DNA of 33,182 bases. Source: Flavobacteriales bacterium. GTDB lineage: Bacteria > Bacteroidota > Bacteroidia > Flavobacteriales > Flavobacteriaceae. Shown here piece by piece: positions 1 to 12,832 of the stretch; the first letter of the stretch is position 1; each line of letters begins with the position of its first letter. The translations under genes and the position numbers were made by a program. Location: NCBI GenBank assembly GCA_024641135.1, contig JAHEDS010000024.1, positions 1 through 33,182 on the forward strand, given 5' to 3'. The notes beneath the pieces were generated by a model. That model had not been told where the DNA came from. It worked only from the letters and a program-made list of their open reading frames with translations, and did no database searches.

Positions 1-361
1 TATGAGGTAAGGCTACGACTGAACCACAATTACCATCTTTATCCATAATGCAAGCATCCAGAGTAACATTGCCCTCCCTATCTGGTCGACCTCCCAGACC
101 AACCGTTTCGTTTAATGGATCGGCTTCTTCAACCATAACACCCTGCTCAACGGCATCCAGTGCATCGCCACCACTATTTAAAATGTCCCATGCTTTGGAA
201 GTAGCATTAGGAAAATTCCATGTACAAACAACCAATGGTTTAATCGATTTTATTGTTAAATTCTCATTAATAGTTGATGGTCTATTAGAGGCTATTATTG
301 ATGAAGAAACAATTCCCGTGATACTGAGAGCTGAATTTTTTATAAATTTTCGTCGTTGCAT
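1..361 (-). CDS. N4-(beta-N-acetylglucosaminyl)-L-asparaginase (glycosylasparaginase), N-terminal part only
   Basis: This reading frame runs off the left edge, so only about the first 120 residues are visible. The family cleaves the GlcNAc-Asn bond of N-linked glycopeptides and is an Ntn-hydrolase that self-processes into two chains. The start is the ATG reading 361 to 359. The N-terminus (MQRRKFIKNSALSITG) has a twin arginine and a hydrophobic stretch, suggesting Tat export to the periplasm. The following segments VVCTWNF, GGDALDAVE, GLGGRPDREG and VTLDACIMD agree closely with what I recall of the Elizabethkingia (Flavobacterium) meningosepticum enzyme. The catalytic Thr that starts the beta chain would lie outside the window. 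The gene is divergent from cutC, and neighbouring glycoprotein-degradation genes would be expected beyond the edge. An isoaspartyl peptidase of the same superfamily is the main alternative, but the GRPD segment favours glycosylasparaginase. Confidence 0.88.
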   Translation of the reverse strand, partial: MQRRKFIKNSALSITGIVSSSIIASNRPSTINENLTIKSIKPLVVCTWNFPNATSKAWDILNSGGDALDAVEQGVMVEEADPLNETVGLGGRPDREGNVTLDACIMDKDGNCGSVVALPH

Positions 362-534
362 GGCTGGGTTTTTAAATTTTCAATAGTAATACCTATTTCG
401 TTTTAAATGAAAAACTAAAATAGTGAGATACACTTAAATAATTAGCATTATTAGGCGAATATTAGTAGTTTTAACATAATAGGGAAAAGGCATTTTCTAG
501 ATTTTTCAATTTAACTTAAGGCGAAATGTAATTT

Positions 535-1266
535 ATGATTGTTGAAATTTGTGCGAATTCATTTGAGTCGGCTTATAATGCACAACTGGCAGGAGCACAA
601 CGTATTGAATTGTGTAGCGAACTTGCAGTAGGAGGTGTCACACCTTCATTTGGCTTAATGAGCCAGGTTAAATCCTCTCTAAGTATTCCAGTTTTTGTTT
701 TAATCCGACCTAGAAGTGGTGATTTTGTGTATTCTTCGGCTGAGTTTGAAATTATGAAAAAAGATGTTGAATTATGCAAAGAGTTAGGATGTTCAGGGGT
801 TGTCTCAGGCGTATTAAATACCGACAATTCAATAGATATAATAAGAACTCAGGAGCTTGTTAATCTGGCCAAACCGTTGCCATTTGTTTTTCATCGCGCT
901 TTCGATTTAGTTCCTAATCCTGTTAAGGCATTGAATCAGTTACTTCAGTTAGGTGTAATTCGTATTTTAACTTCGGGCCACGAAAGTTCAGCAATTAAAG
1001 GATTAAAACTACTTAATGAATTAAAAGAATTAGCAAAAGAGGCCATTACTATTCTACCTGGAGGTGGTATTACAGTAGAAAATGCCAAGCAATTTCAAGA
1101 AGCAGGATTTAAGGAGATTCATTGTTCCTTAACAGAATTTCACCCTTTTAACGTGCAACCAAAAATACATTTTAATAGCCCTAAGCATTTTATCGAATCG
1201 GGTAAATTTATTTCGGATACTTCAAAAATTAAAGAGATTTTACAATTATTAAATGAACCCAAATAA
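535..1266 (+). CDS. cutC: CutC family protein
   Basis: The 243-residue product has the usual length and appearance of CutC, a cytoplasmic TIM-barrel protein. Diagnostic segments are the N-terminal VEICANS, AQRIELCSEL with GGVTPS, FVLIRPRSGDF, FVFHRAFD and the late ILPGGGIT. The family was named for copper tolerance in E. coli, but its enzymatic role is unsettled, so the symbol reflects homology and not a proven copper function. The start ATG at 535 gives the standard N-terminus directly at the first beta strand. There is no Shine-Dalgarno, only an A-rich upstream stretch, as is normal in Bacteroidota. It is divergent from the glycosylasparaginase gene, a pairing that may reflect a role in sugar or glycan catabolism (inference). 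Confidence 0.9.
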   Translation: MIVEICANSFESAYNAQLAGAQRIELCSELAVGGVTPSFGLMSQVKSSLSIPVFVLIRPRSGDFVYSSAEFEIMKKDVELCKELGCSGVVSGVLNTDNSIDIIRTQELVNLAKPLPFVFHRAFDLVPNPVKALNQLLQLGVIRILTSGHESSAIKGLKLLNELKELAKEAITILPGGGITVENAKQFQEAGFKEIHCSLTEFHPFNVQPKIHFNSPKHFIESGKFISDTSKIKEILQLLNEPK

Positions 1267-1300
1267 ATAAAATCTTAAGAAATTATTTATTATAAATTGT

Positions 1301-1308
1301 TAATCTTG
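1301..1308 (+). promoter_or_regulatory. Possible -7 element for the metallophosphoesterase gene
   Basis: TAATCTTG differs by one base from the Bacteroidota -7 consensus TAnnTTTG and lies 56 bases before the start codon at 1364. No convincing -33 TTG is seen at the usual spacing, so this is a weak call. The rest of the 97-base gap after cutC is plain AT-rich sequence with no terminator hairpin. Confidence 0.25.
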
Positions 1309-1363
1309 CATTAAATACCATGTAATTATGTGTTTAACTTTTTACATTTGATAAAATTTATTT

Positions 1364-2599
1364 ATGTCCCGATTTTTTATTTCAGTATTAATATTTTCAA
1401 TATTATTTTTTGTTATTGAGTTTTATGCGTTTCAGGCACTCAAAACCATCACAAAAAATAAGTATGTAAAAATCTTTTGGGTTTTAATGGCCTTGGGTAT
1501 TTATGTGAATTTATTTTATACACTTTATTCGACACCCAGAAGTGCCGGACAAACGATTCGATTTCAACTAGCGGCTGGCTTTTTTCTAACCTTTTTAATT
1601 CCAAAATTGGTTATTGTAATCGTTATGTTTGGTGAAGATGCTGTTAGAGTTGTTCAAAAAACCATTTCTTATATAACACCTGGAACTACTCAACCTATGC
1701 CAAGTCGTCGCTTATTTGTTTCACAATTGGCGTTGGGATTGGCAGCCATTCCTTTTACTTCTTTTTTATACGGAATTATTAAGGGCCGATATAATTATAA
1801 GGTTTTAAAATATCAATTAACTTTTGATGATTTACCTGAGGCATTTGATGGGTTTAAGATTACCCAAGTTTCTGATATTCATTCAGGGAGTTTTACAAAC
1901 CCTGATAAAATTCAATACGGTATTGATTTAATTAATCAGCAAAAATCGGATGTGATTCTTTTCACTGGCGATATTGTAAATAATAAGGCCGATGAAATGG
2001 ATAATTGGATTGATTATTTTAAAAATTTTGAAGCATCTTATGGTAAGTTTTCAATTTTAGGAAATCATGACTATGGCGATTATGTAGATTGGACTACTAA
2101 AGAAGATAAGGCCAAAAATTTTGAAGCAGTTAAAGAAATACATCCCAAAATTGGTTTTGATTTATTGTTGAATGAAAACCGGTATATTGAAAAAGATGGA
2201 CAAAAAATAGCCATTATTGGTGTAGAAAATTGGGGAAAAGGCTTTAATAAAGCTGGAGATCTGGAAAAGGCAACTATTGGGTTGCAAAAGGAAGATTTTA
2301 AAGTGTTAATGACTCACGACCCATCGCACTGGGAATATAAAGTTAAGGAAGATGATTTTAATTATCATCTTACCTTAAGTGGACATACCCATGGGCTTCA
2401 AATGGGTATTGAGATTCCAGGATTTTTTAGATGGAGTCCTTCACAATATGTTTACAAGCAATGGGCTGGAATGTATTCAGAATTTGGAAGACATATAAAC
2501 GTAAATCGTGGTTTCGGATATCACGCCTTTCCTGGAAGAGTAGGTATTTGGCCAGAGATAACAGTAATTGAATTAAAAAAAGGAACAAATAGTGCGTAA
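1364..2599 (+). CDS. Membrane-anchored metallophosphoesterase (YkuE/YaeI-like)
   Basis: The 411-residue protein has an N-terminal membrane region with hydrophobic segments near residues 2-24, 38-56, 67-90 and 117-138. A calcineurin-like phosphoesterase domain follows from about 160. All metal-binding motifs are present: SDIH at 170-173, GD at 202-203, GNHD at 233-236, a His at 318 and GHTHG at 340-344. The dinuclear metal site should therefore be intact. Relatives hydrolyse phosphodiesters or pyrophosphates, and some act on lipid substrates such as UDP-diacylglucosamine. The substrate here cannot be told from sequence. The catalytic domain follows the last membrane segment, but its side of the membrane is not determined. 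The gene stands alone between cutC and the thioredoxin-like gene. Confidence 0.85.
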   Translation: MSRFFISVLIFSILFFVIEFYAFQALKTITKNKYVKIFWVLMALGIYVNLFYTLYSTPRSAGQTIRFQLAAGFFLTFLIPKLVIVIVMFGEDAVRVVQKTISYITPGTTQPMPSRRLFVSQLALGLAAIPFTSFLYGIIKGRYNYKVLKYQLTFDDLPEAFDGFKITQVSDIHSGSFTNPDKIQYGIDLINQQKSDVILFTGDIVNNKADEMDNWIDYFKNFEASYGKFSILGNHDYGDYVDWTTKEDKAKNFEAVKEIHPKIGFDLLLNENRYIEKDGQKIAIIGVENWGKGFNKAGDLEKATIGLQKEDFKVLMTHDPSHWEYKVKEDDFNYHLTLSGHTHGLQMGIEIPGFFRWSPSQYVYKQWAGMYSEFGRHINVNRGFGYHAFPGRVGIWPEITVIELKKGTNSA

Positions 2600-2723
2600 C
2601 AGGCTTGATATTATAAGAAAGTTGAGTTAAAAATGTTATAATTATATTGAAATTGTTTATTTTTAAATATTAATCATTATACACTAATATGATTGGATGT
2701 AAGTGTATTATGAAAAAATTACT

Positions 2724-2745
2724 TAGGTTTGTATAAGTACATTTG
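2724..2745 (+). promoter_or_regulatory. Two overlapping candidate -7 elements upstream of the thioredoxin-like gene
   Basis: TAGGTTTG (2724-2731) and TACATTTG (2738-2745) both match TAnnTTTG exactly and lie 32 and 18 bases before the start codon at 2764. Neither has a clear TTG at -33. The 164-base gap upstream is otherwise AT-rich with no evident hairpin. Confidence 0.45.
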
Positions 2746-2763
2746 ACTAATAAATAATAAAGT

Positions 2764-3060
2764 ATGTCAAAATTTGGGGAACTAATAGATGTAGACATTC
2801 CTGTTTTGTTAGATTTTTTCACTGATTGGAATGATCAATCCACAGCAATGCATCCGGTTTTAAGAGATGTAGCTGCTGCACTTGGAGACAAGGCAAAAGT
2901 TATTAAAATAGATGTCGATAAGAACCAAGAATTAGCAGAAGCCCTTAGAGTAAAAGGGTTGCCAACACTTATTATTTATAAAAACGGAGAAATGAAATGG
3001 CGTCAAAGCGGTGAGCAGGACGCTAATACTTTAATAGGGATTATTAAACAGTATCTGTAA
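2764..3060 (+). CDS. Thioredoxin-fold protein lacking the CxxC active site
   Basis: This 98-residue protein aligns along its whole length with thioredoxin. It has the strand VLLDFFTDW, the central VIKIDVDKN, the cis-proline loop GLPTL (residues 66-70) and the C-terminal helix. At the active site the canonical WCGPC is replaced by WNDQS (residues 22-26), so both cysteines are missing (Asn23 and Ser26). There is no cysteine anywhere in the protein. It cannot do thiol-disulfide exchange and more likely binds a partner (inference). There is no signal peptide, so it is cytoplasmic. From memory, similar short proteins occur in other Flavobacteriaceae, which would argue against a simple mutation. 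Its stop codon region overlaps the end of the convergent deacetylase gene by 17 bases. Confidence 0.85.
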   Translation: MSKFGELIDVDIPVLLDFFTDWNDQSTAMHPVLRDVAAALGDKAKVIKIDVDKNQELAEALRVKGLPTLIIYKNGEMKWRQSGEQDANTLIGIIKQYL

Positions 3061-3694
3061 ACTTCAAGGATTTAAAAACGAATCCCTTTTTAGCATAGTA
3101 TTCTAATACTTTAGGTAAAACTTCCATCATGTTTTTTGAAGCTTTAACACTATCGTGAAAAACGATAATACTTCCTTTTTCTATATTATCAATGGCGTTT
3201 ATTAAACATTTTTCAGGGCTTACAGTTTTATCCCAGTCAACTGTTAAAACATCCCACATAATGATATGATATCCAGAAGCTATAAGCTGGTTGGCCTGAC
3301 TTGGTTTTATACGCCCGTAAGGCGGTCGAAACAGATTTGTTTTGCAGCCAAGAGATTCCATTATGGATGCCGCTTGTGTAACATTTTTAAGATAATCTAT
3401 AGTTAATGTTTTCCAGCCTTTTAAATGATTATGTGTATGATTTCCGATAGTATGGCCATCATTTAAAATATCCTGAAAAATTTCGGGATGCTTTTCCACA
3501 TTATTACCAATACAAAAAAAGGTTGCTTTGGCATGATACTTTTTTAATTGGTTTAAAGTCCAGTTTGTAATTTCTGGCGTGGGGCCATCATCAAAAGTTA
3601 GATAAATAACAGCTTCAGTGGTAGGTCTGTTCCAAACATAATTTGGAAACATTTTTTTTACCACTGAAGGTGTTTTTACTGGTATTAGCAACAT
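3044..3694 (-). CDS. Polysaccharide deacetylase family protein (NodB homology domain)
   Basis: The 216-residue product is a compact carbohydrate esterase family 4 domain, which removes N-acetyl groups from chitin-like or peptidoglycan sugars. The motifs are TFDDGP (residues 33-38, with metal-binding Asp36), NHTHNH (85-90, metal ligands His86 and His90), FRPPYG, a WDV/VDW segment and the late IIVFHDS with a probable catalytic His. No signal peptide or membrane anchor is visible, so it may act in the cytoplasm or leave by an unusual route. The start at 3694 lies 2 bases after the stop codon of the DUF2723 gene, so the two are probably translationally coupled. Its 3' end overlaps the convergent thioredoxin-like gene. 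Confidence 0.88.
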   Translation of the reverse strand: MLLIPVKTPSVVKKMFPNYVWNRPTTEAVIYLTFDDGPTPEITNWTLNQLKKYHAKATFFCIGNNVEKHPEIFQDILNDGHTIGNHTHNHLKGWKTLTIDYLKNVTQAASIMESLGCKTNLFRPPYGRIKPSQANQLIASGYHIIMWDVLTVDWDKTVSPEKCLINAIDNIEKGSIIVFHDSVKASKNMMEVLPKVLEYYAKKGFVFKSLKFTDTV

Positions 3695-3696
3695 AA

Positions 3697-6600
3697 TTAT
3701 TCAGCGTCTATACTCGTGTCAGACGGTATGTCTTTATCCAAGTTTTCTTGGGAGCCTGAAGGATCTTCATAAAAATGACTAAACAATTTTAAATAGGAAT
3801 TGAATATTTCACTTTCGGTTTTAGCAAAATCAGGATCATAGGTTATTAGAACATCAACAAGACCTTTATAGCGTTGTATATCAGTATAAATATCTTCAAA
3901 CATATGCTCTTGATTGGCTTTTGTTAATCCACTGTAATAGGTAAGATTCTCTTGGTATTTATTAGCAACCTCCTTAAAAAGTTTTCCGGCTTTTTCTTTA
4001 TTACCTACTTCGTAATATGCACTTATGTAAGGTTCAAGTAAGGTGTAATATCCAAAATAGTCAACCGGCATGTTTTTCATGGCTATATCGGCTATTTCTT
4101 CTGCTTTTTCTAATTTATTTTCATTAATTAATTGTTCAATTAATCGAGCCAAATTACCTCTGTATGAAATAGAGTTTTTACGTGTTTCTGGATCATGGTA
4201 AATATCTGGACTACCACTGTTACCCCAATACCAGTTTTTAACTTTTTCATACATTAAATCGCTGTCAACTCGACCCATATCAAATGGATTTGCTTTATCT
4301 ACAGGTGTTTTTATAGGTACTAATTTATAACACATACCATCCAGTTGTAAATAGTCTTTCATCCAGATATAATCATCATCACCAAAACTGCCGCCAGTAA
4401 AATAAATAGAGCGTTTCCAGTCGTTATTAGCAATAATGTCCAGCATAAGCAATCTGTTTTTATAAATAGCACCATCTTTAATTTTTATAGTAATATAAGG
4501 CACTATTTTATCGGCATCTTTTGGATTTACATTCCCATATTTAAGGACATTTTCTTTATTAACTGGTAATTTTAAAAATTCTGTTGGTAAATAATTGGCA
4601 TTTAAATCTTGATTTCTTATCCCGCTAATATCAACACCTTGTTGCTCAAGCACATATTTATATTTTGTTCTGGGGTTGTCGCTGGTTATAAAATTTAGAA
4701 AATCCTTTATATCTAAAGTATCAGTAGTAACAGGGTCTTTAATAATATAATCTCGCGTTCCGTATTTATACTGATCATGCGTTAGCTGAGAAGGAACGGG
4801 ATCACTTTCATAAGCTTTCCGTTTCATTTGGTCAATATACCAGTCGGTTTGAAATAAACTTGTGTTTACAACCCGAACATCGGTTCTGTAGCCTTCAATT
4901 TCCTGAGCGTACCAAAGGGCAAAGGTGTCGTTATCTCCAATCGAAAATAAAATACCATTTTTTGCACAAGAATCCAGATACATTTTTGCCATTGAGTTGG
5001 CAGTATATTTATCCGACCTATCATGGTCGTTCCAGTTATTAGCCGCTAAAATCCCGGGTACTAAAACTAAACAGGTAATGGTAATCGCTGGTGCCAATAT
5101 CTTGGAAGGAATGTGTTTCTTTAAGCCATCAAATATTGCAAAAACCCCAAATCCAATCCAAAGTGCAAAGACATAAAAAGAGCCTACAACCGAGTAATCA
5201 CGCTCTCTTGGTTCAAAAGGGCGTACATTAGTGTAAAATTGAATTGCAAGTCCCGTAAAAAGGAAGAACACTAACATGATCCAGAATAATTTCTTGTCTT
5301 TATTGAATAAAAAGAACAAACCAATTAGCCCTAAAATGAGCGGTAGAAAGTAATAAGTATTTCGGGCTTTGTTATTTTTAACGTCATTTGGTAAATTATC
5401 CTGCGATAAGCCCAAATGCCATTCATCAATTGGTTTAATGCCACTTATCCAGTTACCATGATTGTCATATTTTCCCTGAACATCATCCTGTCTTCCAACA
5501 AAATTCCACATAAAATAACGCCAGTACATATAACCTAACTGGTATTGGATCATGTAAACAATGTTACTTGCTAGTGATGGTTTTTCAATATCTATATAGT
5601 TCTTGTAACGCTTTAAAAAATTATTGTAATCTTCATAATCCACATTGCCTTTTACAACATCATTTTTAAAATTAGCTACTAAAGTTCTAAGCTCATTTTG
5701 CATTTGGTAATCAGCCTTCAATTTAAAATCTAAATATCCTGAAAACATCATATAATTTTCGGCGTGTTCTGTACTCCACATTCTTGGAAGAATTGAGGCG
5801 TGTTTAGAATTATAATTTTGTTTGGCGTTCTTATAATCGTTTACAATAACATACTTGCCTTTTGCTTCATCTTTTTCATATTTTGGTTTGTCATCTACAT
5901 ATGGATTGTTTTCATCAAGATAAGCGTACTGATCTGTAAATTGCGGACCGTAAAACAAATGGGTCTCGGGGTATTGTTCTAAATTATAATAAGCCAATAA
6001 TTCCCTGGCACTTGAAGGGTCATTTTCGTTAATCACAACATTGGCATTGGCACGAATAGGTAAAAGCATCCAAGATGAAAACCCAATAATAATAAAAGTA
6101 ATACAAAGAATGCCCGTGTTTAAATGGATATACCCTTTTTTGTAAGTAAACGATAAGCCGTAATAAATTAAAGCGACTATAAATAAACCTGCAATGATAG
6201 ATCCGGAATTAAAAGGAAGACCAATCGAGTTGACAAAAAAGATTTCAAAATCACTAAAAATCTTTAAAATATTAGGTGCTAATAATTTAAATACAAATAA
6301 TAAAACGGCTACAGAAACCACATTCGCTATAATGAAGTTTTTTATGGTAACGGTTTTGTAATTTTTAAAAAAGTAAATGAGTCCTATAGCAGGAATGGTT
6401 AATAAGCCCATAAAGTGAACACCAAAGGATAGTCCTAATACAAAAGAAATTATAATAAGCCATCTGTTACCTCGTGGTTTGTCCATATCCTGTTCCCAAC
6501 GTAATCCTAACCAAAATAAAACAGCCATAATTAAGGTAGCCATGGCATAAACTTCTGTTTCAACAGCATTAAACCAAAAAGAATCTGTAAAAGTAAAAGC

Positions 6601-6990
6601 TAAACTACCAACCAAACCACTCCCAAGAATGGCGATTGCTTTTTGTTGAGTCAACTCATTTTTTTTAACAGCCATTTTTTTCAGAAGAAGTGTAATCGTC
6701 CAAAACATAAAAAGAATAGTAAATGCACTGGCCATTGCACTCATGAGGTTTAACATGTAACCTATTTTTGAAGGTTCGAATGCAAACAAAGAGAAAAAGG
6801 CTCCAAACATTTGAAACAAAGGTGCTCCCGGCGGATGACCAACCTGAAGTTTAGAAGAAGTTAAAATATATTCTCCAGCATCCCAAAAACTAACGGTAGG
6901 TTCTACTGTTAAACCATAGGTTATAAAGGCAATTAAAAAAGTGAACCAACCGGTTATGGTGTTCCATTTTTTAAAGTTTAAATAGGTCAT
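3697..6990 (-). CDS. DUF2723 family multi-pass membrane protein, putative O-mannosyltransferase-like (TMEM260-related)
   Basis: The 1097-residue product starts with a membrane helix and the loop SFWDAGEY (residues 34-41) followed by GHPPGAPLF, the signature of the DUF2723 family. Acidic residues in this first loop (Asp37, Glu40) resemble the catalytic position of GT-C glycosyltransferases. About a dozen hydrophobic segments fill the first two thirds. The last 200 or so residues are hydrophilic and helical, probably TPR-like (EKAEEIADIAMKNMP, EKAGKLFKEVANKY). The human relative TMEM260 is an O-mannosyltransferase, and Bacteroidota have general protein O-glycosylation, so a role in envelope glycosylation is plausible but not shown. 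It forms an operon with the downstream deacetylase. No clear TAnnTTTG promoter is visible on its side of the 239-base gap before the tRNA. Confidence 0.85.
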   Translation of the reverse strand: MTYLNFKKWNTITGWFTFLIAFITYGLTVEPTVSFWDAGEYILTSSKLQVGHPPGAPLFQMFGAFFSLFAFEPSKIGYMLNLMSAMASAFTILFMFWTITLLLKKMAVKKNELTQQKAIAILGSGLVGSLAFTFTDSFWFNAVETEVYAMATLIMAVLFWLGLRWEQDMDKPRGNRWLIIISFVLGLSFGVHFMGLLTIPAIGLIYFFKNYKTVTIKNFIIANVVSVAVLLFVFKLLAPNILKIFSDFEIFFVNSIGLPFNSGSIIAGLFIVALIYYGLSFTYKKGYIHLNTGILCITFIIIGFSSWMLLPIRANANVVINENDPSSARELLAYYNLEQYPETHLFYGPQFTDQYAYLDENNPYVDDKPKYEKDEAKGKYVIVNDYKNAKQNYNSKHASILPRMWSTEHAENYMMFSGYLDFKLKADYQMQNELRTLVANFKNDVVKGNVDYEDYNNFLKRYKNYIDIEKPSLASNIVYMIQYQLGYMYWRYFMWNFVGRQDDVQGKYDNHGNWISGIKPIDEWHLGLSQDNLPNDVKNNKARNTYYFLPLILGLIGLFFLFNKDKKLFWIMLVFFLFTGLAIQFYTNVRPFEPRERDYSVVGSFYVFALWIGFGVFAIFDGLKKHIPSKILAPAITITCLVLVPGILAANNWNDHDRSDKYTANSMAKMYLDSCAKNGILFSIGDNDTFALWYAQEIEGYRTDVRVVNTSLFQTDWYIDQMKRKAYESDPVPSQLTHDQYKYGTRDYIIKDPVTTDTLDIKDFLNFITSDNPRTKYKYVLEQQGVDISGIRNQDLNANYLPTEFLKLPVNKENVLKYGNVNPKDADKIVPYITIKIKDGAIYKNRLLMLDIIANNDWKRSIYFTGGSFGDDDYIWMKDYLQLDGMCYKLVPIKTPVDKANPFDMGRVDSDLMYEKVKNWYWGNSGSPDIYHDPETRKNSISYRGNLARLIEQLINENKLEKAEEIADIAMKNMPVDYFGYYTLLEPYISAYYEVGNKEKAGKLFKEVANKYQENLTYYSGLTKANQEHMFEDIYTDIQRYKGLVDVLITYDPDFAKTESEIFNSYLKLFSHFYEDPSGSQENLDKDIPSDTSIDAE

Positions 6991-7182
6991 CTTTTAATAT
7001 GTTTGTTTATGATGGCGAATTTAATAATAAATATGAAAAGAGGAACAAGTATTTAGTTACTGTTAACATAATTAATACCTACAGCAATAGTTCAATTTTG
7101 AAAACATAAGATTTTGAATTTCAAAATGAGACGCAAATTTCATTAAAACCGTAGTTTATCAATATTATTTTCAAAAAAATAC

Positions 7183-7212
7183 TTGTGCAAATAAAACTTT
7201 GTGCTAAATTTG
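7183..7212 (+). promoter_or_regulatory. Promoter of tRNA-Gln
   Basis: A TTG at 7183-7185 and TAAATTTG at 7205-7212 are separated by 19 bases, matching the Bacteroidota primary sigma factor consensus (TTG/TAnnTTTG). Transcription should begin near 7219, about 11 bases before the mature tRNA. This is the cleanest promoter in the window. Confidence 0.75.
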
Positions 7213-7229
7213 CACCCTCAATTACACAT

Positions 7230-7302
7230 TGGCCTATGGTGTAACTGGCAACACGTCTGGTTTTGGTCCAGAAGAGTCTAGGTTCGAGCCCTAGTAGGCC
7301 AA
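7230..7302 (+). tRNA. tRNA-Gln (anticodon TTG)
   Basis: The sequence folds into a full cloverleaf. The acceptor stem is TGGCCTA (7230-7236) with TAGGCCA (7295-7301) and discriminator A7302. The anticodon stem TCTGG/CCAGA (7256-7260 with 7268-7272) encloses the loop TTTTGGT, with anticodon TTG at 7263-7265. The T stem CTAGG/CCTAG (7278-7282 with 7290-7294) encloses TTCGAGC. The anticodon reads CAA (and CAG by wobble), hence glutamine. The encoded DNA continues with CA rather than a full CCA, so the 3' end is presumably completed by nucleotidyltransferase. It is a lone tRNA with its own promoter and terminator. Confidence 0.95.
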
Positions 7303-7309
7303 CAATATT

Positions 7310-7344
7310 AAAAAATCCTAATCTCATTGAGATTAGGATTTTTT
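7310..7344. terminator. Two-way palindromic terminator between tRNA-Gln and the stress protein gene
   Basis: A perfect inverted repeat of 17 bases per arm (7310-7326 and 7328-7344) has one central base. A run of A begins it and a run of T ends it, so either strand gives a stem of AATCCTAATCTC type followed by six U. It lies 7 bases after the tRNA and 30 bases after the end of the convergent stress protein gene. Confidence 0.85.
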
Positions 7345-7374
7345 GTTTATAATATATTGATTTTTAAGCTAATA

Positions 7375-8202
7375 TTATTCAATTTTAAAAGTCATTACGG
7401 GGCGTTTGGCATTGTTAACCAAGTCTTCACTTATGCTGCCATTGAAAAAACTTGAAAGGCCTTGTCTGCCATGGGTACACATGCCAATTAAATCGGCAGA
7501 AATAGATTGTGAAAAATTCATGATGCCCTTTTCAACATTAATATCGTTATAAATATTAACGGTATAATCATCAAATTTAGCTTTTTTTGCAAAGTCTTTA
7601 ATACGTGCTTCAGCATCTTGAGTAGTCATAAAATGGCTGGCGGTATTTACCATAAGCAGATGTATTTTGGCATCAAATAATTTTGCGAATTCTATTGCTT
7701 TCATAAACGGCGCTTTATAGTGGTCTTTAAAATTTGAAGCAAAAACCATATGATTCACTTTGAAAACAGGATGTTCTTTTTTGATCACTAAAACGGGCAC
7801 TTCAGAAGTACGAACAATTTTTTCAGTATTCGAGCCAATAAGCATTTCTTTAAAAGAGTTAGTACCATGAGAACCCATAACAATTAAGTCGATGTGATGC
7901 TTTTTACAGACTTGATACACACCTCTAAAAGGCTCGTAAAATTCAACAATTTCATGAACATTGATGCCTTTCAAGTATTCTTTCTCTAATAAGGTTTCAA
8001 AATGTTTATGCGCTAGTTTCATAAAGTACATAGCTTCAGGTAGCGTCTGAGCGGTGCTCAAAGGGTCTACTTTTTGCATCGGCAATTCAAGCGTATGCAG
8101 TAAGTAAATTTCTGCTTTTTCTTTTTTAGCTAATTGAGCAGCCACTTTTAATGCGTTTTCGGCTTGCTCTGAAAAGTCTGTAGGTATAAGTATTTTTTTC
8201 AT
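7375..8202 (-). CDS. Universal stress protein, tandem UspA domains
   Basis: The 275-residue cytoplasmic protein has two Usp domains, about 1-145 and 150-275. The first begins MKKILIPTDFSEQAENAL, which is typical, and carries the ATP-binding pattern MGSHG followed nine residues later by GSNTEKIV. The second has MCTHG followed by GSISEDLV, a close version of the same motif, so nucleotide binding by both halves is possible. Two-domain Usp proteins are common in Bacteroidota and respond to starvation or stress; no specific partner can be inferred. It is monocistronic on minus and ends at the shared terminator near 7330. No clear promoter motif is visible in the 80 bases before its start. Confidence 0.92.
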   Translation of the reverse strand: MKKILIPTDFSEQAENALKVAAQLAKKEKAEIYLLHTLELPMQKVDPLSTAQTLPEAMYFMKLAHKHFETLLEKEYLKGINVHEIVEFYEPFRGVYQVCKKHHIDLIVMGSHGTNSFKEMLIGSNTEKIVRTSEVPVLVIKKEHPVFKVNHMVFASNFKDHYKAPFMKAIEFAKLFDAKIHLLMVNTASHFMTTQDAEARIKDFAKKAKFDDYTVNIYNDINVEKGIMNFSQSISADLIGMCTHGRQGLSSFFNGSISEDLVNNAKRPVMTFKIE

Positions 8203-8279
8203 GGTATTTGGTTTACGTTAACAAAGTCAGTTATGTTATAAATTTATGAATATTACTTTAAAAATCCATTAAAAAATTA

Positions 8280-8287
8280 TATATTTG
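8280..8287 (+). promoter_or_regulatory. -7 element of the rimP-nusA-infB operon promoter
   Basis: TATATTTG matches TAnnTTTG exactly and is followed by GC-rich bases. Transcription would start near 8293 and leave a leader of about 57 bases that contains the hairpin at 8315-8335. A -33 TTG is not obvious. Confidence 0.6.
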
Positions 8288-8314
8288 CGCCGTTGTAAGG
8301 CAAAATTAGGAATT

Positions 8315-8340
8315 GAGGGGACGGAAAGTCCCCTCTTTTT
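8315..8340 (+). promoter_or_regulatory. Terminator-like hairpin in the rimP leader (possible attenuator)
   Basis: GAGGGGAC (8315-8322) pairs perfectly with GTCCCCTC (8328-8335) around the loop GGAAA, and TTTTT follows directly (8336-8340). That is the form of an intrinsic terminator, but it lies between the promoter and the rimP start codon at 8350. It could attenuate the operon, or hold the leader in a form sensed by RimP, NusA or the ribosome. It is too far from the stress protein gene, and on the wrong side of it, to end that transcript. Confidence 0.65.
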
Positions 8341-8349
8341 ATAAAAAAA

Positions 8350-8811
8350 ATGTTTAAAACTACCGTAAAAGATTTACTCGAAAAAGCGCTTTTAGAAAGA
8401 ACCGATTTGTTTCTTTTAAATATGTCTATTTCTGAAGACAATAAAATTAAAATTGTTTTGGATGGAGATAAGGGTGTTAGTGTTGAAGATTGTATGTTTA
8501 TTAGTAGAGCAATCGAGCATAATTTGGATAGAGAAGAGATTGATTTTGCGTTGGAGGTGGCTTCAGCTGGAGCTGCATCACCCATTGTCAACAAAAGACA
8601 ATACATAAAAAATATTGGAAGAACCCTTGAAGTTAAAACAGCATCAAGTAATATTGAAGCTAAACTTAAAGGAGCCTCTGATGAGGGAATTTCATTGGAG
8701 TGGAAAGTTAGAGAACCTAAACCCTTGGGAAAAGGTAAGGTAACTGTAAAAAAAGAAGCTATAATTGCTTATAGTGATATTGTAGAAGCAAAAGTGTTGA
8801 TTAAATTTTAA
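8350..8811 (+). CDS. rimP: Ribosome maturation factor RimP
   Basis: The 153-residue product matches the RimP family, needed for assembly of the 30S subunit. The N-terminal alpha/beta domain (about 1-80) holds VDGDKGVS-like and VEDCMFISRAIE segments and the family signature FALEVASAGAASP. An SH3-like domain follows (about 85-153, IGRTLEVKT). First in a rimP-nusA-infB operon, the standard order in bacteria; nusA begins 12 bases after its stop. The start ATG follows an A-rich tract rather than a Shine-Dalgarno and sits 14 bases after the leader hairpin. Confidence 0.95.
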   Translation: MFKTTVKDLLEKALLERTDLFLLNMSISEDNKIKIVLDGDKGVSVEDCMFISRAIEHNLDREEIDFALEVASAGAASPIVNKRQYIKNIGRTLEVKTASSNIEAKLKGASDEGISLEWKVREPKPLGKGKVTVKKEAIIAYSDIVEAKVLIKF

Positions 8812-8823
8812 TTCAAAAGAGTT

Positions 8824-10056
8824 ATGGAGAATATTGCGTTAATTGAATCGTTTTCAGAATTCAAAGACGATAAATTAATAGATCGTGTAACGTTAATGGC
8901 TATTTTAGAGGATGTCTTTAGGAGTGCATTAAAAAAGAAGTTTGGTGATGATGATAATTTTGATATTATTGTGAATCCAGATAAGGGCGATTTGGAAATA
9001 TGGAGAAACCGTGTTGTAGTTGCCGATGGTGAGGTTGAAGAACCAAACCAGGAAATTTCTTTGTCTGAAGCTCGAAAAATAGAACCAGACTTTGAAGTTG
9101 GTGAAGATGTTTCTGAAGAAGTGAAATTAGTCGATTTAGGAAGAAGAGCGATTTTAGCATTGCGTCAAAATCTTATTTCTAAAATTCACGAACATGATAA
9201 CACTATTATCTATAAACAATTTAAAGATTTAGTGGGTGAAATTTACACTGCTGAGGTGCACCACATTCGTCATAGAGCTGTTATATTGTTAGATGATGAA
9301 GGTAATGAGATTATTTTACCAAAAGAAAAGCAAATCCCATCAGACTTTTTTAGAAAAGGAGATAACGTAAGAGGAGTTGTTGATAGTGTGGAATTAAAAG
9401 GAGCAAAACCTACTATTATTTTATCAAGAAGTTCACCAGCGTTTTTAGAAAAGCTATTTGAACAAGAAATTCCAGAGGTTTTTGACGGGTTAATTACGGT
9501 TAAAAAAGTAGTTAGAATTCCAGGTGAAAAGGCTAAGGTGGCTGTAGATTCATATGACGACAGAATTGATCCTGTAGGTGCATGTGTTGGAATGAAAGGG
9601 TCGAGAATTCATGGAATTGTAAGAGAATTAGGGAATGAAAATATTGATGTTATTAATTACACCAATAATTTACAATTATATATTACCAGAGCTTTGAGCC
9701 CAGCGAGAGTTACTTCAATTAAAATTAATGAAGAAACAAAAAGAGCTGAAGTGATTTTAAAACCTGAAGAGGTAAGTAAGGCTATTGGTAGAGGAGGACA
9801 CAATATTAGATTAGCTGGTCAATTAACTGGTTATGAAATTGATGTGTTTAGAGAAGGTGCTGAAGAAGATGTAGAATTATCTGAATTTACTGATGAAATT
9901 GAAGGATGGATAATTCAAGAATTTAGCAAAGCTGGTCTTGATACAGCGAAGAGTATTTTAGAGCAGGATGTTGAAGATCTTGTTAAGCGAACAGATTTAG
10001 AAGAAGAAACAATTAGAGACGTTATTAGAATTCTGAGAGAGGAATTTGAAGAATAA
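8824..10056 (+). CDS. nusA: Transcription termination/antitermination factor NusA
   Basis: The 410-residue protein has the N-terminal RNA polymerase-binding domain (about 1-125), an S1 domain (about 130-200) and two KH domains: GACVGMKGSRIHGIV and, later, AIGRGGHNIRLAGQL, both GxxG-type RNA-binding loops. A short acidic helical tail ends the protein. It lacks the long acidic-repeat C-terminus of the E. coli protein, which is normal in this phylum. NusA modulates pausing, termination and antitermination on nascent RNA. It lies between rimP and infB, separated from infB by 28 bases. Confidence 0.97.
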   Translation: MENIALIESFSEFKDDKLIDRVTLMAILEDVFRSALKKKFGDDDNFDIIVNPDKGDLEIWRNRVVVADGEVEEPNQEISLSEARKIEPDFEVGEDVSEEVKLVDLGRRAILALRQNLISKIHEHDNTIIYKQFKDLVGEIYTAEVHHIRHRAVILLDDEGNEIILPKEKQIPSDFFRKGDNVRGVVDSVELKGAKPTIILSRSSPAFLEKLFEQEIPEVFDGLITVKKVVRIPGEKAKVAVDSYDDRIDPVGACVGMKGSRIHGIVRELGNENIDVINYTNNLQLYITRALSPARVTSIKINEETKRAEVILKPEEVSKAIGRGGHNIRLAGQLTGYEIDVFREGAEEDVELSEFTDEIEGWIIQEFSKAGLDTAKSILEQDVEDLVKRTDLEEETIRDVIRILREEFEE

Positions 10057-10084
10057 CGTATATTTGGTATATTAAAGGCAATTT

Positions 10085-12832
10085 ATGGCTGAGACAGTGA
10101 GATTAAATAAAGTATTACGCGAATTAAATATTTCTATTGATCGTGCAGTAGATTTCTTGGAATCTAAAGGTATCGATGTGGAAAAAAGTCCGAATACTAA
10201 AATATCAGAAAAGGTACATGCAATTCTTTTAAGCGAATTTCAAACAGATGCCAACAAAAAAGTAGCATCTCAAGAAGTTAGTGAGGCAAAACTTAAGGAG
10301 AAAGAAATATTGCGCGAACAACGTGAGCGTGAAATTGAAGAAAAACTTAAAGCAGAAGCTAAAAGAGAAGAGATTATAAAGGCATCTACAGTTATTTCTA
10401 GACCTAAACCTATTGGAAAAATAGATTTAGAGCCAAAAAAGAAAGAAGCCGCTCCTGTTGCAAAGGTTGAAGAAGTTAAGGAAGTTGTTCAAGAAGCACC
10501 TAAGAAAGAAGAAAAGGTAATTGCCAAACAAGAAATTGTAGAAAAACCAAAGGTTGTTCCTGTTGAAAAAAAGGAAGCTGCAAAACCGGTAGAACCTAAA
10601 CGTGAAAAATTAAATAGTGATGGCGAATTAGTTCCTGATGAAAAGGTAGCGACAAAATACCAAAAACTTACAGGTCCTAAAATTGCTGGCAGCAAAATAG
10701 ATCTTTCGCAATTTAATAAACCAAAGAAAAAGAAAGAAGATAAAAAGACCGATTCAAAGCCAGGTGAAAACACTGGAAATAAAAAGAAACGTCGACGTAT
10801 TAGTAAAGTTGGTGGGCCACAATCTGGAAATGATCAAAGTAGAGGTTCTGGACCTAATAGAGGTGGTAATGACAGATTCAAAGGTGGAAATCAAGGAACA
10901 AGAAGGCCAGTTATAAAAGAAGAGCCAAGTGAAGAAGATGTTCAAAAGCAAGTAAGAGAAACTCTTGAAAAACTTCAAGGGAAATCTAATAAGGGCAAGG
11001 GAGCAAAATACCGTAGAGAAAAAAGAGAACTTCACAAAGAACAATCAGAAAGAAGTTTAGAACAGGAAGCAGCAGATAGTAAAATCCTTAAAGTAACTGA
11101 GTTTGTTACTGCGAGTGAAGTTGCAACAATGATGGATGTGCCGGTAACTCAAATTATTTCTGCTTGTATGTCTCTTGGTATGATGGTAACCATGAATCAA
11201 CGATTAGATGCAGAAACCTTAAGTATTGTTGCTGAAGAGTTTGGTTATCAGGTGGAATTTGTAACTGCAGACATCGAAGAGTCTATTGAAGAATTTGAAG
11301 ATAAAGAAGAAGATTTAAAACCACGTGCCCCAATTGTTACAGTAATGGGTCACGTCGATCATGGTAAAACATCTCTTTTAGATTATATAAGAAAAGAAAA
11401 TGTAATTGCTGGTGAATCGGGTGGTATTACACAGCATATTGGAGCCTATGGTGTAGAACTGGATAACGGTCAAAAAATAGCATTTTTAGATACACCAGGT
11501 CACGAAGCCTTTACAGCGATGCGTGCCCGTGGAGCTCAAGTAACAGATTTAGCTATTATTGTTGTGGCTGCTGATGATGATATCATGCCACAAACAAAAG
11601 AGGCAATCGCACATGCACAGGCAGCTGGAGTGCCAATTATTTTTGCAATAAATAAAATTGATAAGCCAGATGCAAATCCTGAAAAAATTAAAGAGGGACT
11701 TGCTCAAATGAATTTATTAGTTGAAGATTGGGGTGGAAAAATTCAATCTCATGATATTTCGGCTAAACAAGGAACTGGTGTTAAAGAATTATTAGAAAAA
11801 GTATTGCTTGAAGCGGAATTATTAGAGCTTAAAGCTAATCCAGATAAACCGGCTAACGGAACTGTTGTTGAGGCATATTTAGATAAAGGCCGTGGTTATA
11901 TTTCAACTATTTTAGTACAAGCAGGAACCTTGAGAATTGGCGATTATGTATTGGCTGGAAAAAATAGTGGTAAAGTAAAAGCGATGCAGGATGAACGTGG
12001 AAATAATGTGCCTGAAGCAGGTCCTTCAACACCAGTATCTATATTAGGATTGGATGGAGCACCTCAAGCTGGAGATAAGTTTAACGTATTCCAGGATGAG
12101 CGTGAAGCGAAGCATATTGCTGCTAAAAGATCGCAGTTACAACGTGAGCAATCAGTGAGAACGCAACGCCATATTACACTTGATGAAATTGGTCGCCGTA
12201 TTGCACTTGGAGACTTCCAGGAATTAAATATTATTCTTAAAGGAGATGTGGATGGTTCTGTGGAAGCATTAACAGATTCATTCCAGAAATTATCGACTGA
12301 AGAGATTCAAGTAAACATATTACATAAAGGTGTTGGTGCCATTACTGAAAGTGATGTATTGTTAGCTTCTGCTTCTGATGCAATTATCATCGGATTTAAT
12401 GTGCGTCCTGTTGGAAATGCTAGAATGATTGCTGATAAAGAAGAAATTGATATTAGAACATACTCGATTATTTACGATGCTATTAATGACCTTAAAGATG
12501 CTATGGAAGGCATGTTGTCTCCAGAGTTTAAAGAGGAAATTACCGGTACTGCTGAAATTAGAGAAATATTTAAAGTAACTAAAATTGGTAGCATTGCAGG
12601 TTGTATGGTAACTAATGGTAAAATACTTAGAAATTCAGGTATTCGTCTTATTAGAGAAGGTGTGGTTGTATTTACTGGGGAATTAGCTTCTTTAAAACGT
12701 TTTAAAGACGATGCTAAAGAAGTAACCAAGGGTTATGATTGTGGTATGCAAATTAAAAACTATAACGACATTAAAGAAGGAGACATAATTGAAGCCTTCC
12801 ATGAAGTTGAAGTTAAAAAGAAATTAAAATAG
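10085..12832 (+). CDS. infB: Translation initiation factor IF-2
   Basis: The 915-residue GTPase places initiator tRNA on the ribosome. The first 60 residues form a helical domain ([19 protein letters not shown]). A long charged linker rich in Lys/Glu and then Gly/Asn/Arg follows (to about 330), typical of Bacteroidota IF-2. The G domain starts near 415 with GHVDHGKT (422-429), then DTPGHEAF, and NKID in the fourth motif. Domains II, III and IV follow to the C-terminus. The variable linker probably explains low similarity to other phyla in that part. It is the last gene of the operon, with a terminator 31 bases after the stop codon. Confidence 0.97.

Follow-up and report, generated by a model that had tools for sequence, protein, structure and literature searches.

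What is left for a thioredoxin to do once its catalytic cysteines are gone? A gene in the window analysed here, a stretch of 33,182 nucleotides from a bacterium of the Flavobacteriaceae, raises this question: its 98-residue product, read from ATG to TAA, contains no Cys residue (Table 1), and on the opposite strand of the same interval the single-frame reading is interrupted by stops. A preliminary description of this DNA had proposed that the thioredoxin fold and its cis-proline loop are kept, that WCGPC has become WNDQS in a protein without any cysteine, and that the gene is under selection for another job. The fold assignment holds. The protein scores 62.6 bits (E 4e-17) against the Pfam thioredoxin profile PF00085, passing the gathering cut-off of 23.5, and the best of five structure predictions (pLDDT 84; 68, 44, 44 and 42 for the others) resembles thioredoxins from end to end (Foldseek TM 0.88; VIA-align Z 17.1 and rmsd 1.3 over 97 residues, with D. 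radiodurans Trx2 matched at Z 17.1). The presumed cis-proline corresponds to P67 within LPT and is present in 144 of 147 orthologues. The translation likewise agrees with the exchange of WCGPC for WNDQS. The predicted model lacks the strand with which typical thioredoxins begin and opens with helix 1, and relatives with a CxxC motif start at roughly the same point as the window protein. No signal peptide is evident by eye, and the protein is probably cytoplasmic.

Table 1. Coordinates of the Cys-free gene, of its conserved segments and of the neighbouring features in the window
Feature	Position	Strand	Basis
Cys-free thioredoxin-fold gene, 98 aa	2764..3060	+	ORF/translation; Pfam PF00085; 373/397 family genomes matched by profile
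K-F-G, near-invariant start, codons 3-5 (K3 146, F4 147, G5 147 of 147)	2770..2778	+	alignment
WNDQS replacing WCGPC, codons 22-26 (W22-N-D-Q-S26)	2827..2841	+	translation; alignment with CxxC relatives
ALRVKGLPT with cis-Pro loop, codons 60-68 (P67 144/147)	2941..2967	+	alignment
MKWRQSG, codons 77-83 (W79 and R80 147/147)	2992..3012	+	alignment
Calcineurin-like phosphoesterase (PF00149), immediately upstream, same strand	1364..2599	+	neighbour annotation
Polysaccharide deacetylase (PF01522), convergent; syntenic slot marker	3044..3694	-	neighbour annotation
DUF2723/TMEM260-like (PF11028); syntenic slot marker	3697..6990	-	neighbour annotation
TAGGTTTG, TAnnTTTG box beginning 40 bases 5' of the start codon; likely -7 element of the gene's promoter	2724..2731	+	motif

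The loss of the CxxC motif is not peculiar to this copy. We read 147 distinct orthologous sequences from 179 loci, including 30 genomes from the weaker end of the matches. A Cys residue at position 23, the nucleophile, occurs in none of them, one at position 26 occurs in seven, and none has a CxxC anywhere within the 98 aligned columns. Read from these sequences, dithiol chemistry is excluded in all 147 orthologues, and in the 133 whose whole open frame is cysteine-less a thiol is absent altogether; the earlier claim that the protein cannot be a redox enzyme is thus borne out with respect to a CxxC enzyme. Close relatives with an intact CxxC, which would have marked this copy as a decaying mutant, were looked for and none was found; intact copies at this locus were found only in other families of the order. 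Being common to orthologues throughout the family, the CxxC-less state of the window protein is far beyond chance.

The Cys-free protein is also widespread. Among 397 genomes drawn evenly from the Flavobacteriaceae, 373 contain a profile match at E ≤ 1e-30, a count distinct from that of the sequences read, and the match is nearly always single (two matches in five rows). The proportion is similar where completeness is at least 90% and contamination at most 5% (316/330 genomes), and the protein is present even in genomes of ~1.2 Mb. In a scan of named species, the best 80 loci belong to Flavobacteriaceae (e.g., Psychroserpens, Winogradskyella, Formosa, Gelidibacter, Gillisia, Salinimicrobium) or to metagenome bins, a few of which are labelled other than Flavobacteriaceae. 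The similar proteins in other flavobacteria that the preliminary description mentioned therefore exist. A search of open-access published literature, covering listings with the beginnings of abstracts, returned no Cys-free flavobacterial thioredoxin and, again from the beginnings of abstracts, no transposon essentiality set for flavobacteria. The remaining 24 genomes lack a match at this threshold. Twenty of these 24 were searched again at 1e-6, and reading of the hits, a few weaker ones aside (e.g., L181 of G236), recovered diverged CxxC-less copies in G029, G118 and G381. A copy of the Cys-free type was not found in some nearly complete genomes, e.g., of the genera g73 and g148. In two g73 genomes a different gene occupies the place beside the deacetylase gene, indicating that the loss there was clean. 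Thus, the protein is dispensable in some lineages.

Several lines of evidence bear on whether the gene is simply a decaying or inactivated thioredoxin gene. Both catalytic cysteines are gone, the gene is missing from a few genera, and a congener contains a broken additional WCGPC-type copy, legible only across two frames (L225, G003:C8:33896-34176), though at a different locus. However, all 147 orthologues read gave open frames, none with a CxxC, their conservation comes close to that of NusA (see below), and in 21 within-genus pairs pN/pS was 0.000-0.041 at a dS of 0.2-1.8 (Nei-Gojobori method, own script). Because synonymous sites are well diverged, it is the protein and not the DNA that is constrained. 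We therefore reject decay, which is hardly credible in the face of such pN/pS values and of retention across the family, and the same evidence bears out the proposed selection for another job. The thioredoxin gene and the deacetylase gene converging on it share 17 bases at their 3' ends (3044-3060); constraint at the nucleotide level through this overlap is also discarded, given the dS values within genera.

Beyond the family, weaker matches were found in the order (148 genomes) and in the class (149 genomes), and the sequences read there carry a CxxC with the sole exception of G476. This thioredoxin from another family of the order (L164:5029-5325) reads WCGPF, and the absence of its second Cys represents an independent partial loss. 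In the family f15 of the same order, all seven genomes read have a CxxC thioredoxin (WCGPC, WCGSC or WCAPC), which adjoins the deacetylase gene in five genomes and the DUF2723 gene in one, and is one ORF removed from the deacetylase gene in another. In a further family, f7, a WCGPC or WCQPC protein occupies this slot in two of ten genomes read and lies elsewhere in the other eight. Since a CxxC thioredoxin can occupy the slot in both families, the Cys-free protein is its positional counterpart, and the syntenic CxxC copies likely mark the ancestor rather than decay. In our trees the Cys-free proteins form a single clade, lying on one side of a single branch (support 100/98; bootstrap not fully settled) that is retained when the columns of the site are removed (SH-aLRT 95) and when 30 more divergent members and a phage copy are added (support 98). 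Because these trees span ~98 columns and leave the deeper order among the CxxC relatives unresolved, it is position, and not the tree, that supports orthology to the syntenic copies. Altogether, a single loss of the cysteines, at the base of the family or earlier, is probable. Thus, one CxxC loss appears to have become fixed in a large bacterial family, while CxxC proteins still stand in the slot elsewhere in the order.

Conservation in the Cys-free proteins is inverted, the old active site being far more variable than the remainder. Over the 147 orthologues, mean entropy is 1.84 at positions 20-28 and 0.80 at the rest, and for a core set of 61 orthologues the values are 1.06 and 0.41, whereas 42 CxxC relatives show the reverse (0.55 and 1.37). 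The Trp of WCGPC, W22, is retained in 112 of 147 orthologues. Conservation of Asn23 and Ser26, a check put forward in the preliminary description, is seen only in part: both residues are common (105 and 116 of 147, respectively), but neither is invariant and their neighbours at positions 20-28 are highly variable. We therefore reject the idea that a new conserved motif has arisen at the old active site, and this variability points to a new function that does not depend on a fixed motif there. Compared to canonical TrxA (PF00085, TIGR01068), the protein shares the fold, the cis-Pro loop and, in other families, a slot held by CxxC relatives; it differs in having no cysteine, a variable site, clade-typical fixed residues and no first strand, and it scores 72.7 bits against the TIGR01068 equivalog, under the curated cut-off of 96.8.

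The constraint lies elsewhere. Positions conserved in at least 95% of the 147 orthologues include K3, F4, G5, A60, L61, K64, P67, T68, Y72, M77, W79, R80 and G83, and the clade-typical residues are absent or rare in the CxxC relatives. G5, for example, is present in all orthologues and in none of the 45 CxxC relatives compared, with two CxxC proteins from other families of the class (L307 and L308) also having it, and L66, E84 and A39 are found in 82-89% of orthologues and in none of the 45. In the numbering of E. coli thioredoxin, L66, P67, S82, G83 and E84 fall at positions 75-76 and 91-93, which we take to be the usual partner-binding rim. As judged from the alignment, the groove is retained but partly re-lettered, with extra conserved positions on helices 1, 2 and 3, and we infer that together these positions make up a face for binding.

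These findings support a model, to which we assign a probability of roughly 0.65, whereby a thioredoxin without redox function now serves as a constitutive adaptor or subunit, binding and holding a single partner protein. According to this model, a protein standing where an ordinary CxxC thioredoxin would be found dropped its CxxC on one occasion, no later than the base of the family, and was then kept as a protein-binding module. One main partner would be held via the retained cis-Pro groove together with clade-specific positions. Candidate contacts among the latter are the KFG residues that open helix 1, helix 2 from about H30 to K43, residues A60, L61, R62 and K64 where helix 3 ends, and the hairpin with its loop, M77-W79-R80-(Q-S-G)-E84-Q85-D86. 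Neither co-occurrence with the adjacent phosphoesterase in 34 genomes nor fusions among the matches listed revealed a partner. Retention in small genomes, the putative promoter and the phage copy (see below) also speak for the model, whereas the genomes without the gene, the three in which the WCGPC paralogue is better conserved and the lag behind NusA count against it.

The same surface could instead serve a general holdase or folding chaperone, with a groove that accepts many unfolded chains and needs no redox chemistry, much like the non-catalytic domains of PDI-like proteins. The kept groove elements (G83 in 145 orthologues, besides P67 and W79), the ability of thioredoxins to bind exposed peptides and the broad conservation of the protein in the family all fit such a role. 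However, a generalist groove hardly explains why K3, R62, K64, E84 and D86 are near-fixed and unlike the CxxC relatives, and we consider this explanation unlikely. A catalyst independent of Cys residues, or a ligand- or metal-binding protein, would need residues of its own, for which H30 (125/147) and D17 (115/147) are the candidates; because neither is invariant, each being substituted by several different residues, and no enzyme family besides the thioredoxin-like group scored above its cut-off for the window protein in the Pfam and NCBIfam scans, such an activity is very improbable.

The genome of origin also carries a WCGPC paralogue (G000:C91), 43% identical to the window protein, and a TrxA-type protein, and this active-looking paralogue in the same cell serves as an internal control. 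Like the Cys-free protein it has a short N terminus and a WRQSG hairpin, but it has kept the CxxC, lies at another genomic place and is the less conserved of the two in 16 of 20 genomes compared. In pairwise comparisons of the 20 genomes with both proteins, the Cys-free protein is the better conserved in 138 of 190 pairs; after G016, G028, G118 and G202 were set aside upon inspection, this is the case in all 120 pairs of the remaining 16 genomes (mean 0.83 versus 0.64). In G028, G118 and G202, unlike in G016, the WCGPC paralogue is the more conserved. The coexistence of these redox proteins with a Cys-free protein that takes the place of a CxxC thioredoxin at its locus and has kept its partner-recognition loops would suit a regulator of the redox system, i.e., a thioredoxin acting as a dominant negative by tying up thioredoxin reductase or redox targets with no turnover. 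Yet L66, E84, Q85 and D86, in the loops alongside the groove, are 82-90% conserved and unlike the CxxC relatives, suggesting a changed set of partners, and in those 16 genomes the supposed mimic is more conserved than the redox paralogue it would mimic. A regulator of this type is therefore also unlikely. WCGPC relatives have neighbours of their own: one adjoins an MBL-fold/rhodanese gene in a flavobacterium (L149:5985-7776), and another, found on a Pontibacter plasmid (L240), has an MBL-fold gene and a regulator of the ArsR type next to it. These neighbours suggest a role of the WCGPC relatives in sulfur-transfer redox. In another family of the order, tandem thioredoxins are found, one of them fused to a domain that by eye is rhodanese-like (L142:5281-6281).

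The proposed adaptor or subunit evolves slowly. In 29 genomes chosen without regard to similarity to the Cys-free protein, its mean identity to the window copy is 83.8% versus 88.8% for NusA, and NusA is the better conserved of the two in 25 of them, the Cys-free protein being at least as conserved in four. A comparison with neighbouring loci gave 0.915 for the Cys-free protein, 0.924 for NusA and 0.823 for IF-2 (351 pairs), these values being biased, as the 27 loci were picked for high similarity to the Cys-free protein. High expression alone could cause such slow evolution.

A copy is also present in a phage. The 51.5-kb viral contig IMGVR_UViG_3300048571_000060 encodes a Cys-free protein with WNDTS at the former site (L237:724-1020) that is 58% identical to the window protein and 64% identical to the nearest host copy in the tree. 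The contig contains primase-, helicase-, clamp- and exonuclease-like genes as well as genes of the deazaguanine pathway, and its clamp-like protein is its own; a search of the contig, which may be a fragment, for a family-A DNA polymerase was negative. Small genes surround the Cys-free gene, and close to it are a NUDIX gene and an ORF that by eye is MazG-like. The viral collection was scanned twice, and both scans led to this same contig and to no further one with the Cys-free type, and a broad phage family of this type is therefore out; the sequences read from the phage collection (the two best of five matches) and the plasmid collection (two of four) are all of the CxxC type. This single case shows capture but does not establish a rule. 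Phage T7 uses host thioredoxin without redox function. By analogy, we tentatively consider, as a less probable extension of the model, that the protein might belong, as a subunit that defines the lineage, to a core machine in the cytoplasm of the Flavobacteriaceae, having been recruited once for binding only and then kept almost as constant as NusA, and that it might matter enough for a phage to carry a Cys-free copy of its own.

Redox-dead thioredoxin folds are known, it seems mostly as scattered examples; what appears new here is a slowly evolving bacterial case of single origin that is nearly family-wide. Dim1/U5-15K (PF02966), a spliceosomal subunit, is likewise a thioredoxin fold turned structural subunit, a comparison that concerns the way of working only, as the window protein scores 14.3 bits against this profile, below the cut-off of 27. 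Bacterial protein-binding thioredoxin folds without a full CxxC include the HyaE/HupG hydrogenase maturation proteins and the chaperedoxin CnoX (YbbN), which occur in different taxa. HyaE/HupG proteins are recognized by a match to their family profile and by neighbouring hydrogenase genes, and CnoX has a TPR region C-terminal to its thioredoxin domain. The window protein, at 98 residues, consists of the thioredoxin domain only, without the TPR part; neither family appeared in its Pfam and NCBIfam scans down to E 1, and no hydrogenase-like gene was noticed by eye among the ORFs of positions 1-12000 of the window. The Cys-free protein thus offers a natural experiment on what a thioredoxin surface does when the chemistry is removed, and its description names a probable core flavobacterial protein for which an annotation as thioredoxin would mislead.

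Of 81 loci (the best 80 named loci and the window), 79 fall in the clustered set. Among these, the phosphoesterase gene immediately precedes the Cys-free gene in the same orientation in 73, the convergent deacetylase gene lies at +1 in 72 and the DUF2723 gene at +2 in 68. Co-occurrence of the phosphoesterase with the Cys-free gene is not strict: it is present in 22 of 34 genomes searched, it occurs without a Cys-free match in G022, G082, G141, G186, G244, G279 and G301, and G010 has the Cys-free gene and no phosphoesterase. As an obligate partner it is therefore out, and it is probably a common neighbour. The Cys-free gene probably has its own putative promoter: a TAnnTTTG box, which presumably fits the -7 promoter element of Bacteroidota, starts at -46 to -32 in 67 of 78 loci, compared with 1.3 in mono-nucleotide shuffles, the loci being related and hence non-independent.
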